DNA of 64,000 bases from Pseudomonas protegens CHA0. GTDB lineage: Bacteria > Pseudomonadota > Gammaproteobacteria > Pseudomonadales > Pseudomonadaceae. The stretch spans positions 5,129,501-5,193,500 of the forward strand of contig NC_021237.1 in the NCBI RefSeq assembly GCF_000397205.1. The letters run 5' to 3'. Below the pieces are notes generated by a model that saw nothing but the letters and a program-made list of their open reading frames with translations, made no database searches and was not told the origin of the DNA. Below, in pieces: positions 26,448 to 31,573 of this stretch. Positions within the stretch are counted from its first letter, which is position 1; each line of letters opens with the position of its first letter. The position numbers and the translations under genes are program-made.

Positions 26448-26985
26448 CGAAGATTCCAGGCAAGTAAGAAGATCAATCCAAAGACAGCAGGACCCACCCG
26501 GCTTCGCAGCCTGTTTTTGGCGCGCAGATAATAGCTGCTGGCCACGGGCTATCAAGCACTTTCCGGTCGGCCTGTGATCCAGGCCGCCACTTGGGAACAC
26601 AATTGTCCACTGAGGTTATCGGCCGGATTACGCATTCCCTTATAGCCGACGGGCGGCATTTCACCGCGGATTACACAAGTCTCGACCAGCCCGTGTACTC
26701 AGCCGTAAAAGAGGCCTGTTTGCACGCTCAAACCTTGGATTCTGAAACATCACCTGATAGCGTGCTGCGCCTCACAGCCTCGATCGTTTCTGGCCGGAAA
26801 TGCCCCTGCATTGCAGAGGGTCTGCCGCGCAATAAAGGGTCCATCAGTCGCAAGCGTCGCAGGCTTGCGACCCGGGTGTCGAAGGATCGGCATGACACCC
26901 CACGGCGGCACCAACGACGAGGAAATGCCGGTCTGCCAGGCAGTGCATCACGTGATGCGCAGGTCATTATCAAATGGAGTTAACG
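26448..26985. other. intergenic region before the unknown three-gene operon
   Basis: This 538-bp gap has short open frames with atypical composition and no credible start sites, so I call no gene. It holds a 9-bp stem (GTCGCAAGC at 26847, GCTTGCGAC at 26863) and the palindrome GCATCACGTGATGC at 26945-26958. No tRNA fragment, attachment repeat or mobile-element trace was seen. Confidence 0.6.
26945..26958. promoter_or_regulatory. 14-bp palindrome upstream of the unknown operon
   Basis: GCATCACGTGATGC is a perfect palindrome 28 bp before the ATG at 26986, a position suited to an operator. The binding protein is unknown. Confidence 0.45.
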
Positions 26986-29310
26986 ATGGCGCATAACAGC
27001 AGTGCGATAACCGGCATTGAACTGGAACAGTTCATGGACCGCCTGGAGGCGCAACAGCAAGAACAGGAAACCGATGCCCTGCTGGCTCAGTTGCAGGCAC
27101 AACCGCTGCAGGCCGACTCCCTGGCGTCCATCGATCGCCTGCACACCCTGTGGATGCAGGCCGGTAATTCAGCGGCAGCCCGGGCCGTCATCGATCAGGA
27201 TGGCGACGCTCTTGTACAAGCCGCCCCAGAGCCGGCCCGCGCCGAGCTGATGATGAACCTGGCTATCCTGCGCCTGCGGGTCGCCAACTACCTCGATGAC
27301 GAGCCAACCCTGATCGAAGTGCTCGGACAGCTCGAACAGATGGCCACGCAAACCCTGGATTTCAATGTCGAGCATTACCGCCGCTATCGGATCTTCGACG
27401 ATCTGGAACGCGCTAGTTGTGAAATAGCACTGAAAACCATCGAAGTGCGCTACGCCCTGACCTTGGGCAACCCTGCCCGCGCGGCCCTGCGTGCCTGGGA
27501 TGCCGCCGATCAGTATCAGCGCCGCGCCCGAGTCCTGGCCTACCACGACCGCAATGAAGAGGCCCGCAGTGCAGCCCTGGAGGCGGTCAACGCCGTACGT
27601 ACCGCCGGCCCGGACCAGGATATCGATGAAGGCGACTGGCTGTGGTTGGGCAACTCGCTGATCGAGATCATTCCGCTGCGCCTGGCACTGTTCGAGCAAC
27701 CCATCGCGCAACTGACCGCTGGCCGCTCCCAGCCCCAGCGCCGCGAATGGGAAGTGCGCACTGCACGCTTGGCGGCCCGCGCCCTGCACGCCCAGGGCGA
27801 CCTGGCCGGCGCCCTGAAGATCTGCAATGCCGCGGCCCTGAGCCTGGATTCCGACGGAGGCAACAACTTCATCGAATACGAATTGCCCTGGCTGATGGAA
27901 GCTGGCCGCATCGACGAAGCCGGATTTCGCGCATTCATCGATGTCTATGACCGGCAAACCGAGCTATGGCCTGCCACCGCCCGCCTGGTACTCGATCGCC
28001 TGCAAGACCCTGATGAGCACAGTGCCTGGTGGCCGATTTGCGTGATGCGTGCCTGTATCACCGAGGAAGTGCTGCAGAGCTTCCTGCAAGCGCTGCCCAG
28101 CCTCGAAACCAGCAAGCCTGCCACGCCACTGCTGGCCGCCCTCTCCCTGGCCATGGAGGACCTGCAAGCTGGCGACGCGCTGTATACCGAAGCTCGTGCA
28201 GAAGCGGTGCGTCGGGCGCCCGATCACCCCTGGATCACCCGCCTGGCAGCCGTGCACGACGCTGAGCACGGCCTGATCGATGCGGCCACTGAAGCCAGCC
28301 TGCTGCAAAACGCCATCCAGGCAGGCCGCATGCAAGACAACCGCAGTGCGTTTTCGCTGTTTGCCGCTCGGATCAACAGCCAAGGGATTATCGAGGCACT
28401 CAAAGCGCCCAAGCCCGTCCTGTCCTGCGGCAAGCACGCCTACAACTACGCACTGGGCATTGAAGACCTGGCCGAAGCAGAAGCCGACAAACTGCCCCCG
28501 GACGCCCGGGACCAGGCCTATTCGTTGCTGCGCGAAGCCCAGAGAGATGCCTACGAGCAGGGCCAGGCCCATATGGAGCGCTATTTCGCCAGCGGCAGCG
28601 GCCACCCGTACGATGCCTGCGCGCACCTGTATTCCATGCTCTGCAACAACCTGGCGATCAACTACCGCTACTACAACCCGATTCGCTACGAAGACGCCAT
28701 CGAACTGCATACACGGGGCATCGCCGCCAGCCCGTTCGCCGAACACTACAATGGGCTGCTCAGTGCGCGTATCAGCCTGGAGGATCTGCCCGGCATTATC
28801 GATGCTGCGGAACAGCTTTGGCATTATTCGGCCGAGTTCGGCTACAGCCGCCACAACCCGGATGAATACGTAGCCTCGGTGGCGTACGCCCTGTACAAGC
28901 TCGATCGCGACAATGAGATCCTCATCTGGCTCGAACGCCTGCTCAAGTGGCAGGAAGAGCAAGGCGTCAGCGATCAGCAACTGGACAGCTCGGCGCTGTT
29001 TGCCCGGATCCAGGTCGCACGCTACCTGGCCCATGCCCATCCGGACAACGCCGACAGCCTCTGGCAGCGTTACCAGCCGGCGGTACTGTCCCTGAACGAG
29101 GTCTCGGTCATGTCCGCCTCGGTGGACTTCCTCAAGGCCCGGGGGCGCGCCGCCGAAGCCATTGACTACTGCGCACGCACCCTGGCCCTGTGTGCCCCGG
29201 ACGATGACTACGACATCCGGTGCCGTGCCCGGATCGAGCAAATTCTGAGCGAGCTGCAAGCCCCGGCTCAACCGGCCGGCAAGAAAAACTGGTGGCAGAT
29301 ATGGAAGTAA
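26986..29310 (+). CDS. large helical-repeat protein of unknown function (first gene of a three-gene operon)
   Basis: A 774-residue protein I do not recognise. It is almost wholly alpha-helical by composition, with TPR-like helix pairs such as ARALHAQGDLAGALKICNAA and AEAIDYCARTLALCAP. No signal peptide, membrane segment or catalytic motif is visible. It ends with a basic-aromatic tail, GKKNWWQIWK, which may bind a membrane or a partner. The ATG at 26986 has GGAG six bases before it; an ATG at 26974 is in frame but worse placed. It overlaps the next gene by ten bases. A scaffold role is inferred from the repeats only. Confidence 0.75.
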   Translation: MAHNSSAITGIELEQFMDRLEAQQQEQETDALLAQLQAQPLQADSLASIDRLHTLWMQAGNSAAARAVIDQDGDALVQAAPEPARAELMMNLAILRLRVANYLDDEPTLIEVLGQLEQMATQTLDFNVEHYRRYRIFDDLERASCEIALKTIEVRYALTLGNPARAALRAWDAADQYQRRARVLAYHDRNEEARSAALEAVNAVRTAGPDQDIDEGDWLWLGNSLIEIIPLRLALFEQPIAQLTAGRSQPQRREWEVRTARLAARALHAQGDLAGALKICNAAALSLDSDGGNNFIEYELPWLMEAGRIDEAGFRAFIDVYDRQTELWPATARLVLDRLQDPDEHSAWWPICVMRACITEEVLQSFLQALPSLETSKPATPLLAALSLAMEDLQAGDALYTEARAEAVRRAPDHPWITRLAAVHDAEHGLIDAATEASLLQNAIQAGRMQDNRSAFSLFAARINSQGIIEALKAPKPVLSCGKHAYNYALGIEDLAEAEADKLPPDARDQAYSLLREAQRDAYEQGQAHMERYFASGSGHPYDACAHLYSMLCNNLAINYRYYNPIRYEDAIELHTRGIAASPFAEHYNGLLSARISLEDLPGIIDAAEQLWHYSAEFGYSRHNPDEYVASVAYALYKLDRDNEILIWLERLLKWQEEQGVSDQQLDSSALFARIQVARYLAHAHPDNADSLWQRYQPAVLSLNEVSVMSASVDFLKARGRAAEAIDYCARTLALCAPDDDYDIRCRARIEQILSELQAPAQPAGKKNWWQIWK

Positions 29311-30542
29311 GCGCCGACAAGCGCAGCCCCAGCTACGCCCCGCGCAACCTGCTCAATGCCGATGAACTGAAACGCGGCATCACCCAGCGCAGCCAGCAGC
29401 GCAGGGACGAGCAAGCAGTGCAGGGCTGGCTGTTGAACCACTTCTATCGCCACCTGGCGGGCAACTTCGAACCGGCACGGCGCATCCAGTCCCTGGATGA
29501 CGCCTGTACGGCTCTGGGTAGCGACTCGGTGCCGGCCTGGGTGAGCGGCTATTTCGAGCGCGCTGCCAAGGCGCAATCCGAAGACCCCGCCAAAGCCCTG
29601 GCGCCCCTGGTCTGGATCGACCCGCAGGACCCGCAGCTGCTGCACCAGGAAGCCCAACTGGTGGAGTTCCTGACCTCACGCAAAGGCACGGCTCTTGAGG
29701 GCAAGCTGGATCGCATCACTTGCCCGCAAGCGCTGGCATTGTGGGAAAGGGAGCATGCACAAATGGCGGCCCGGGTCGACCAGGGGTGGCGCCAGAGCTC
29801 TGCCCAAGCCCTGACCGTGACCCTTACCTGTGCCGAGCACACCTGGGTCGAACTGCGCCCGCAAAGCCCGCTGTTGCGTGCCGAGATGGCTTTTGAAAGC
29901 TACGTGATGCGCCATTGCCTCGGGCAGTTCGCCGACCGTCGGGCCCTGACCGGCGGCTACGGAGAGCGTTACGCCGAAGCGGTGGAACAACAGGGCATGC
30001 GCGTGTTCAGCCTGCGCGATGCTCAAGGCCAACCCCACATCACCATCAGCCTGATCATCCAGGACGACGGTGCACTGACGGTGGAGCAGGTCAAAGGCAA
30101 GCAGAACCGCCCGCCCGTCGAACGTTATTTCCACGACCTGCTGCGCTTTCTCAACACCCTGGGTACCGACCAACAGACCCCGGCCGACTGCATTGCCATC
30201 GGCATAGTACGTACCGAGGCGGGTTGGCTGCGTATCGAAGAAGTCAGTGATCCTCAAACCCAGACCCGTCTGGTAGCCCGTTACCCACAGTTGTTCCGAC
30301 GGCTGGAAGCCCCTTCGGCCATGGTCGAGTGGCTGGTCGCGGCACGCCAGTCCGACCTGCTGCTGGAGGTCGCGCCCCAGGCGCCGACCGTCAAGTACGC
30401 CACCCGTCACATCTTCAAGAAAACCCCCTTGCCACCACGTCAGGCCGAGGACCCGCAGTATCGGACCGAAGGCGTGCCCTGGTCAGATATGTCCCCATCC
30501 CTGGCCGAAGAAATCAGCACATGGCAAAACAGAAGCAGGTAA
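29301..30542 (+). CDS. PcfJ-like protein
   Basis: A 413-residue protein. The C-terminal half matches the PcfJ-like family pattern: FESYVMRHCLGQFADRRALT (His205, Cys206), MRVFSLRDAQGQPHITISL and VEQVKGKQNRPPVERY. PcfJ-like proteins occur on plasmids, phages and in chromosomal gene sets; their biochemical role is unknown. The N-terminal 190 residues are helical and unlike anything I can name. The start overlaps the preceding gene by ten bases (ATGGAAGTAA), showing translational coupling. Confidence 0.75.
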   Translation: MEVSADKRSPSYAPRNLLNADELKRGITQRSQQRRDEQAVQGWLLNHFYRHLAGNFEPARRIQSLDDACTALGSDSVPAWVSGYFERAAKAQSEDPAKALAPLVWIDPQDPQLLHQEAQLVEFLTSRKGTALEGKLDRITCPQALALWEREHAQMAARVDQGWRQSSAQALTVTLTCAEHTWVELRPQSPLLRAEMAFESYVMRHCLGQFADRRALTGGYGERYAEAVEQQGMRVFSLRDAQGQPHITISLIIQDDGALTVEQVKGKQNRPPVERYFHDLLRFLNTLGTDQQTPADCIAIGIVRTEAGWLRIEEVSDPQTQTRLVARYPQLFRRLEAPSAMVEWLVAARQSDLLLEVAPQAPTVKYATRHIFKKTPLPPRQAEDPQYRTEGVPWSDMSPSLAEEISTWQNRSR

Positions 30543-30549
30543 TACGCAG

Positions 30550-31209
30550 ATGATGACGGTAATTGTCGTGCTATTCGGCGCCTGGCTGGGCTGGCGTCAC
30601 TTTCGCCGCCCGTCGGGAACATCCCTAGTGGTATTCACACCACGTAAGCGTTGGGCACTAACACTGGCACAACCCATGGTCGATGCCACCGGAATGACCG
30701 GTTTCTACGACCCCGATACCACCCACTTCATGGATCAGGCGAAAAGCACCCTGCGGGCCTCGTTGCTGCACCAGATCGGTTTTCGCAGCAACGCCACCGA
30801 CGACGAAGTCTGCGCCCACCTCAATGGCACCCTGGAGCGCCAGTGGTTTCGTATTGACCTGCATGGCCTGAATCCCAGCGACGACCCGCGAGCAGCCATG
30901 GCCTTCGCCTGCGTGCGCAGCGCATTTTTTGTCCGTTGCGCCATGTTGATGAGCTGGCTCGAACCTGAAACAGGGTGGCGCATCATGCTGCTCAACGCCC
31001 AGCGGGCCCAGGACTGCTTCAACGATTGGGAAGACTTCGGCAAGGCCTTCATGCTGGGCCGCCAGCAATGGATAGCCGCATTCAGGGCCGATTCGCTGGG
31101 AACTTCATTCAATGAAGCGAAGCTGAGCCAGTTGCTTGCACCCGGCAGCGGAGTGTGGGCAAGCGTTGACTGGAAGGGATTGCCGGCGCTCTGTCCGGTA
31201 GCGGATTGA
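30550..31209 (+). CDS. membrane-anchored protein of unknown function (possibly DUF1266-like)
   Basis: A 219-residue protein with an N-terminal hydrophobic anchor (MTVIVVLFGAWLGW) followed by basic residues, so the body is probably cytoplasmic. The C-terminal part (WRIMLLNAQRAQDCFNDWED, then FGKAFMLGRQQWIAAFRA) resembles the DUF1266 pattern, a weak call made from memory. It starts 7 bp after the PcfJ-like gene, with two adjacent ATG codons at 30550 and 30553. It completes the operon. Function unknown. Confidence 0.7.
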   Translation: MMTVIVVLFGAWLGWRHFRRPSGTSLVVFTPRKRWALTLAQPMVDATGMTGFYDPDTTHFMDQAKSTLRASLLHQIGFRSNATDDEVCAHLNGTLERQWFRIDLHGLNPSDDPRAAMAFACVRSAFFVRCAMLMSWLEPETGWRIMLLNAQRAQDCFNDWEDFGKAFMLGRQQWIAAFRADSLGTSFNEAKLSQLLAPGSGVWASVDWKGLPALCPVAD

Positions 31210-31385
31210 CATTTCTGGCCCTGGTGACAAGCAGCCAGATCAGCAAAACAACGTGAATCCTTGCAGGCCATCAAAAACACTCACTGTGGCCCTATTCACA
31301 AGCACGTAGCCCCACGCTGGTCAGGCTGTCACCAATACAAGAAAAAGAGCCCGTTGTTTAACGTGCCCCTCGGATAGACGAAATC

Positions 31386-31424
31386 AAAAAAGCCCCGCCC
31401 GAGGATCGCCCGGTGGGGCTTTTC
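31386..31424 (-). terminator. terminator downstream of tRNA-Arg(CCT)
   Basis: AAAAGCCCC at one end pairs with GGGGCTTTT at the other, with a GCCCG-rich inner part, and T-rich sequence on both sides. It lies after the 3' end of the minus-strand tRNA and could also end transcription from the unknown operon on the plus strand. The rest of 31210-31496 shows nothing else. Confidence 0.75.
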
Positions 31425-31496
31425 TTTATTCTTTCGCTCCGGGGTCCAAGAACAGATCAACCGCGCAGGGATCAGCCCAGAAAGATACGAATTATA

Positions 31497-31573
31497 TGGT
31501 GTCCCAGGGCAGGTTCGAACTGCCAACCTTCCCCTTAGGAGGGGGATGCTCTATCCAATTGAGCTACTGAGAC
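31497..31573 (-). tRNA. tRNA-Arg (anticodon CCT)
   Basis: A 77-nt tRNA with encoded CCA. The acceptor stem GTCTCAG pairs with CTGGGAC, with one T-G pair. The anticodon stem TCCCC/GGGGA encloses CTCCTAA, giving anticodon CCT, and the T loop has the usual GTTCGAA. It decodes AGG. Confidence 0.95.

Follow-up and report, generated by a model that had tools for sequence, protein, structure and literature searches.

Three tightly coupled genes on the plus strand of Pseudomonas protegens CHA0 were analysed within a 64,000-nucleotide stretch of its genome (the window), which is taken from a single contig of 6,867,980 bases. Gene A (26986-29310; 774 amino acids, ATG start) encodes a protein modelled as an all-helical TPR-type solenoid, a predicted scaffold or substrate binder; gene B (29301-30542; 413 amino acids, ATG start) encodes a PcfJ-like protein; and gene C (30550-31209; 219 amino acids) encodes a protein with a short N-terminal hydrophobic stretch ahead of DUF1266, predicted to serve as membrane anchor and as partner to B. 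The reading that we favour, tentatively, is that the three products form one membrane-tethered complex, in which B would act as an acyl- or aminoacyl-transferase of GNAT-like type, while A would serve as its substrate-binding scaffold and C as its inner-membrane anchor. A dedicated complex is suggested by the conserved gene order, the tight coupling and the B-C fusions found among relatives; this part of an earlier note on the same DNA, which had proposed a scaffold, effector and anchor, is thus backed, while the role in defence that it also considered is not.

Genes A and B overlap by 10 bases and genes B and C are separated by 7 bases, exactly as had been claimed. The A/B overlap was also 10 bases in all the relatives measured (n = 11/11, from 18 loci), with B/C gaps of 2 to 11 bases, and B is overlapped by the last two codons of the A tail only. 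A second in-frame ATG lies upstream of the A start, at 26974, and the frame of B can also be read from 29220, as a longer open reading frame (ORF) of 440 residues. Homologue searches yielded at least 78 sequences for A (a count resting on the best 7998 candidates scored), 343 for B and 61 for C, indicating that the three ORFs are not due to chance. No promoter-like site was found on the plus strand, and Rfam at its gathering cut-off detected four tRNAs and nothing else.

Within the genus, 19 of 398 genomes, CHA0 included, carried B, and in all of the other 18 A, B and C lay adjacent and in the same order; B was split in one of them, and in one the identities of A, B and C fell to 28, 45 and 41%. 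The same order was observed in 13/13 Pseudomonas contigs, a set that overlaps the 18 and includes the split B, as well as in both other genomes of the same class (identities of 27-29, 41-44 and 40-42%). A wider sample of 398 genomes from the phylum gave four with B, CHA0 included, one of them a chance match (G787; 27 residues, E = 5.6e-4; tblastn detected none of the three genes there) that was dropped. Part of the flanks of the window was shared by 7/18 relatives, two pairs shared other flanks and the rest had individual ones, so that the genes are kept together across Pseudomonas while their surroundings change, which was the check that the earlier note had named as able to refute its proposal. 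An ordinary metabolic or envelope operon, its order due to co-inheritance alone, would agree with the mostly ordinary neighbouring genes and with a G+C content of 0.59-0.65 over 26500-30999, similar to that of the upstream stretch; nevertheless, this explanation is very improbable, as order and coupling persist with changed flanks and at identities of 27-45%, and some relatives carry B-C fusions.

Such fusions, with a B-like part and DUF1266 in one protein, made up 7 of the 120 relatives listed, including three from Zoogloeaceae and one from Accumulibacter. All the fusions tested (n = 4/4) had hydrophobic stretches (hydropathy of 1.75-2.4) between the two parts.

The PcfJ-like signature attributed to B was present, although B itself scored below the curated cut-off of PF14284 (E = 0.022, 15 bits, cut-off 25), and the search of its own genome with this family at E <= 0.001 gave no match; in the E. 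coli control genome, a PF14284 match over the cut-off was obtained. On the other hand, 21 of 28 aligned B sequences matched PF14284 at E <= 0.1, the best at 6.1e-7. In the same alignment, M, R, H and C of MRHC, S and R of FSLRD, and Q, K, G, K, Q and N of QVKGKQN were invariant, while other positions varied. The core motifs of B are MRHC (residues 203-206), GGYG (218-221), R239, H246 and QVKGKQNRPP (263-272). A profile built from B found all of a small set of six viral ORFs, drawn from 12 viral loci fetched (E = 5e-16 to 1.2e-8); these viral-contig members of the PcfJ-like family share with the B core the HC, LRD or similar, PH.T-like and KGKQNRP sites. The best fold matches in BFVD for the model of a B-C fusion were likewise phage PcfJ-like proteins (E = 8.8e-9). 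B differs from the family in its score below the cut-off, in the company of A and C, and in that five bacterial PF14284 loci were hardly found by its profile (three at E = 0.18-0.93, two without match), which argues against a close link; a tblastn search of 50,697 phage records with B yielded no match. Judged by sequence, B is PcfJ-like through its relatives, but it is not a filed member of PF14284.

The fold of the B core (approximately residues 159-310; 29775-30230, plus strand) was judged from the model of a B-C fused relative, P0092, which is 54% identical. Residues ~150-315 of this model matched GNAT-type chains by Foldseek; among the 50 matches listed, 44 were titled acyltransferases and five were FemX, and in P0092 the core motif is flanked by strand 245-252 and helix 259-272. 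The PcfJ core of B is thus predicted to be GNAT-like, of acyltransferase type, and the statement in the earlier note that none of the three genes encodes a recognised enzyme may need revising. The Foldseek scores of the GNAT matches were modest, however. The GNAT donor-binding motif is [QR]-x-x-G-x-[GA], whereas B has Q263-V-K-G266-K-Q268, with an invariant Q instead of G or A at the last position. An hhalign comparison of B with 11 GNAT ORFs gave a probability of 0.6%, in a weak test of low power, since 11 of 30 loci had been kept by length, motif and frame.

A quite improbable alternative is that B handles nucleic acids, as plasmid and phage PcfJ proteins may do, with A and C placing it at the membrane. 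The phage PcfJ-like proteins at the top of the BFVD matches and the basic QVKGKQNR segment point in this direction, but nucleases and nucleic-acid-binding proteins were absent among the 50 Foldseek matches listed, and our literature search found no role for PcfJ.

No Pfam family exceeded its cut-off in A. Its AlphaFold2 model was helical throughout (mean predicted local distance difference test score, pLDDT, of 93.2), and at E <= 0.001 Foldseek found 65 matches in the PDB; the 50 of these that were listed were mostly TPR or other solenoid complexes, with NatA/NatE chains in eight. The A profile also matched the designed TPR protein 8bu0 (E = 1.7e-6). A is accordingly modelled as an all-helical repeat superhelix of the TPR/solenoid type, in line with the long TPR-type scaffold originally proposed. 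The basic-aromatic C-terminal tail, GKKNWWQIWK (29278-29307, plus strand), was also as described: its W-x-x-W motif was kept in 58/58 aligned sequences, although the preceding stretch varies, and it is carried on a low-confidence linker, with pLDDT values of 53 and 46 in the last two blocks of the model.

The DUF1266 region of C, which had been called possible, proved firm, since C matched PF06889 well over the curated cut-off (E = 8.3e-14, 52.6 bits, cut-off 27; profile positions 83-175 of 175). The membrane anchor is less evident in CHA0: the best 17-residue hydropathy in the first 75 residues of C was 1.35, whereas values above 1.6 were obtained for 22 of 31 aligned C sequences, that of CHA0 not among them; the anchor is therefore weak in this sequence and better seen in its relatives. 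NCBIfam and PHROGs gave weak matches only for A, B and C, and two of those to C, NF008480 (20.7 bits against a cut-off of 386) and phrog_1465 (E = 0.013), were set aside. DUF1266 was detected in 20 of 398 genomes, of which three have the operon; in the other 17, none of A, B or DUF4034 (a domain taken up below) was seen over the 8-13 kb fetched, and DUF1266 was therefore rejected as a reliable marker of the system. In ten genomes, eight of them from one family (L103-L112), an open frame of 484-967 amino acids carried two DUF1266 matches, and PcfJ was not seen near these ORFs.

A setting like that of C exists in E. coli K-12, where each of the two DUF1266 genes, ybeR and ybeU, overlaps a larger partner (djlB and djlC, respectively) and two Sel1-repeat genes and the Hsp70 gene hscC adjoin them; the difference is that the partners are annotated as J-domain proteins and no PcfJ is annotated in the 16-kb stretch. 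DUF1266 can therefore occur in chaperone settings, and the three products could form a membrane-linked complex of co-chaperone type, with A and C holding unfolded or client proteins and B serving as a non-catalytic GNAT-like adaptor. The J domain was under the Pfam cut-off in both djlB and djlC. We consider this explanation rather unlikely, as A, B and C lack J-domain and Hsp70 matches, and the invariant polar residues of the B core (H, C, R, K and N) are more in keeping with an active site than with an adaptor.

A second architecture was observed in a plasmid collection, where a C-like gene adjoined B in all the records bearing B (n = 8/8). A preceded B in one of them (Eleftheria), while the other seven, from Salmonella (n = 4) and Burkholderia (n = 3), had a DUF4034 gene behind the B-C pair, confirmed by Pfam in both records scanned; core chromosomal genes are present in the Salmonella records, which are perhaps not true plasmids. 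These seven loci, located between baeR and yegQ in Salmonella, resemble the operon in having a B homologue (37-42% identical) with an adjacent C-like gene (n = 7/7), and differ from it in that A was not found and a DUF4034 protein of 662-703 amino acids was present instead. A kinship of A with DUF4034 was not supported: when A was compared by hhalign with single DUF4034 proteins, two in all, the probabilities were 0.3% and 0.6%. Since either A or DUF4034 accompanies B and C, the latter are a fixed pair whose large partner changes, and the scaffold seems exchangeable.

A Salmonella study (PMC7400221) describes an islet of putative orphan immunity genes, of type VI secretion or contact-dependent inhibition systems, between yegQ and STM2135, a gene of ~700 amino acids without assigned function that, by its place, would correspond to the DUF4034 gene described above. 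A TPR gene (L060:13031-13750) follows DUF4034 in Salmonella Abortusequi, and the same study describes an insertion site upstream of yegQ. STM2133 is tabulated among the Salmonella deletion mutants whose motility is raised (PMC4219756); its identity with the PcfJ-like gene is a guess from the order of the tags and is not used as evidence here. B was interrupted in one Salmonella record (L096:6959-8186), as in P. protegens 14B2 (L033:7001-8231), and sequencing error or decay is possible in both.

The site is variable and the operon is accessory. The variable stretch of the window (26600-31573) runs from a response-regulator/TPR gene to a tRNA-Arg (CCT) gene beside the operon (31497-31573, minus strand, ARAGORN). 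The 13 sites fetched from genomes of the genus for their homologue of the upstream response-regulator gene all lacked A, B and C, although some stop at a contig end, down to 2.9 kb. The distance from the tRNA to the response-regulator gene, 4.9 kb in CHA0, was 1.5 kb, 2.1 kb and, in four cases, 5-7.5 kb among the six sites that had the tRNA within reach; the genome with 1.5 kb (G029) carries the operon elsewhere. In two relatives, integrase genes (Phage_integrase; L038:3150-4388 and L050:7494-8732) that are 99% identical to each other occur downstream of the operon, no tRNA was found in the 20 kb of either locus, and the search for repeats marking an insertion gave weak two-copy pairs only.

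The patchy presence of the operon (19/398), its variable site beside a tRNA gene, the integrase genes downstream of two copies and the Salmonella immunity-gene islet, bounded by the ~700-residue gene that by place would be DUF4034 (PMC7400221), could point to an anti-phage or other conflict system, in which A would be the sensor, B the effector and C the membrane part. Nevertheless, none of the three proteins matched a family of PADLOC-DB 2.0.0 at E <= 1. The neighbouring ORFs scanned (82 of 135, with L034, L039 and L047 wholly left out and other loci in part) matched two PADLOC families at 1e-10, with two ORFs each, and of their 69 Pfam matches the 25 listed were mostly to ordinary families; these ORFs were called mechanically and may include false antisense ones. 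In addition, the flanks shared in part by 7/18 relatives suggest a long residence. A defence role, which the earlier note had put forward, is thus not supported and appears unlikely: the three genes were without PADLOC matches, and the neighbouring ORFs scanned were not rich in defence genes.

Under the favoured reading, a membrane-tethered complex with B as transferase, the three products would bind one another and the complex would probably modify proteins, C anchoring, B transferring and A selecting. B would be catalytic, with its invariant residues H205-C206, R239, H246 and Q263-x-K-G-K-Q-N placed around the GNAT donor site, and acetyl-CoA, another acyl-CoA or an aminoacyl-tRNA would be the candidate donors. 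The solenoid and W-x-x-W tail of A might bring a protein substrate, or dock to B, to C or to the membrane, and the N-terminal hydrophobic stretch of C would hold B at the cytoplasmic face. No description of this three-gene system and no assigned function for PcfJ, DUF1266 or DUF4034 were found in our literature search; the operon, the fusions and the candidate fold turn three families without assigned function into one testable hypothesis, which, if true, would provide the first chemistry for PcfJ and a lead for the phage PcfJ-like proteins.

By analogy, a broader and more doubtful proposal is that the PcfJ proteins of bacteria and phages may represent a new branch of GNAT-type transferases; in the operon, DUF1266 would tether such an enzyme to the membrane and an exchangeable helical-repeat scaffold, either the TPR protein A or DUF4034, would direct it to protein substrates, in the manner of NatA. 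NatA is eukaryotic and acts at the ribosome. If the reading is right, the operon would work like NatA in combining a GNAT part (Naa10 in NatA) with a long TPR scaffold (Naa15); it differs in that no sequence relation is shown, C is without a counterpart in NatA, and the donor-binding motif is matched in part.
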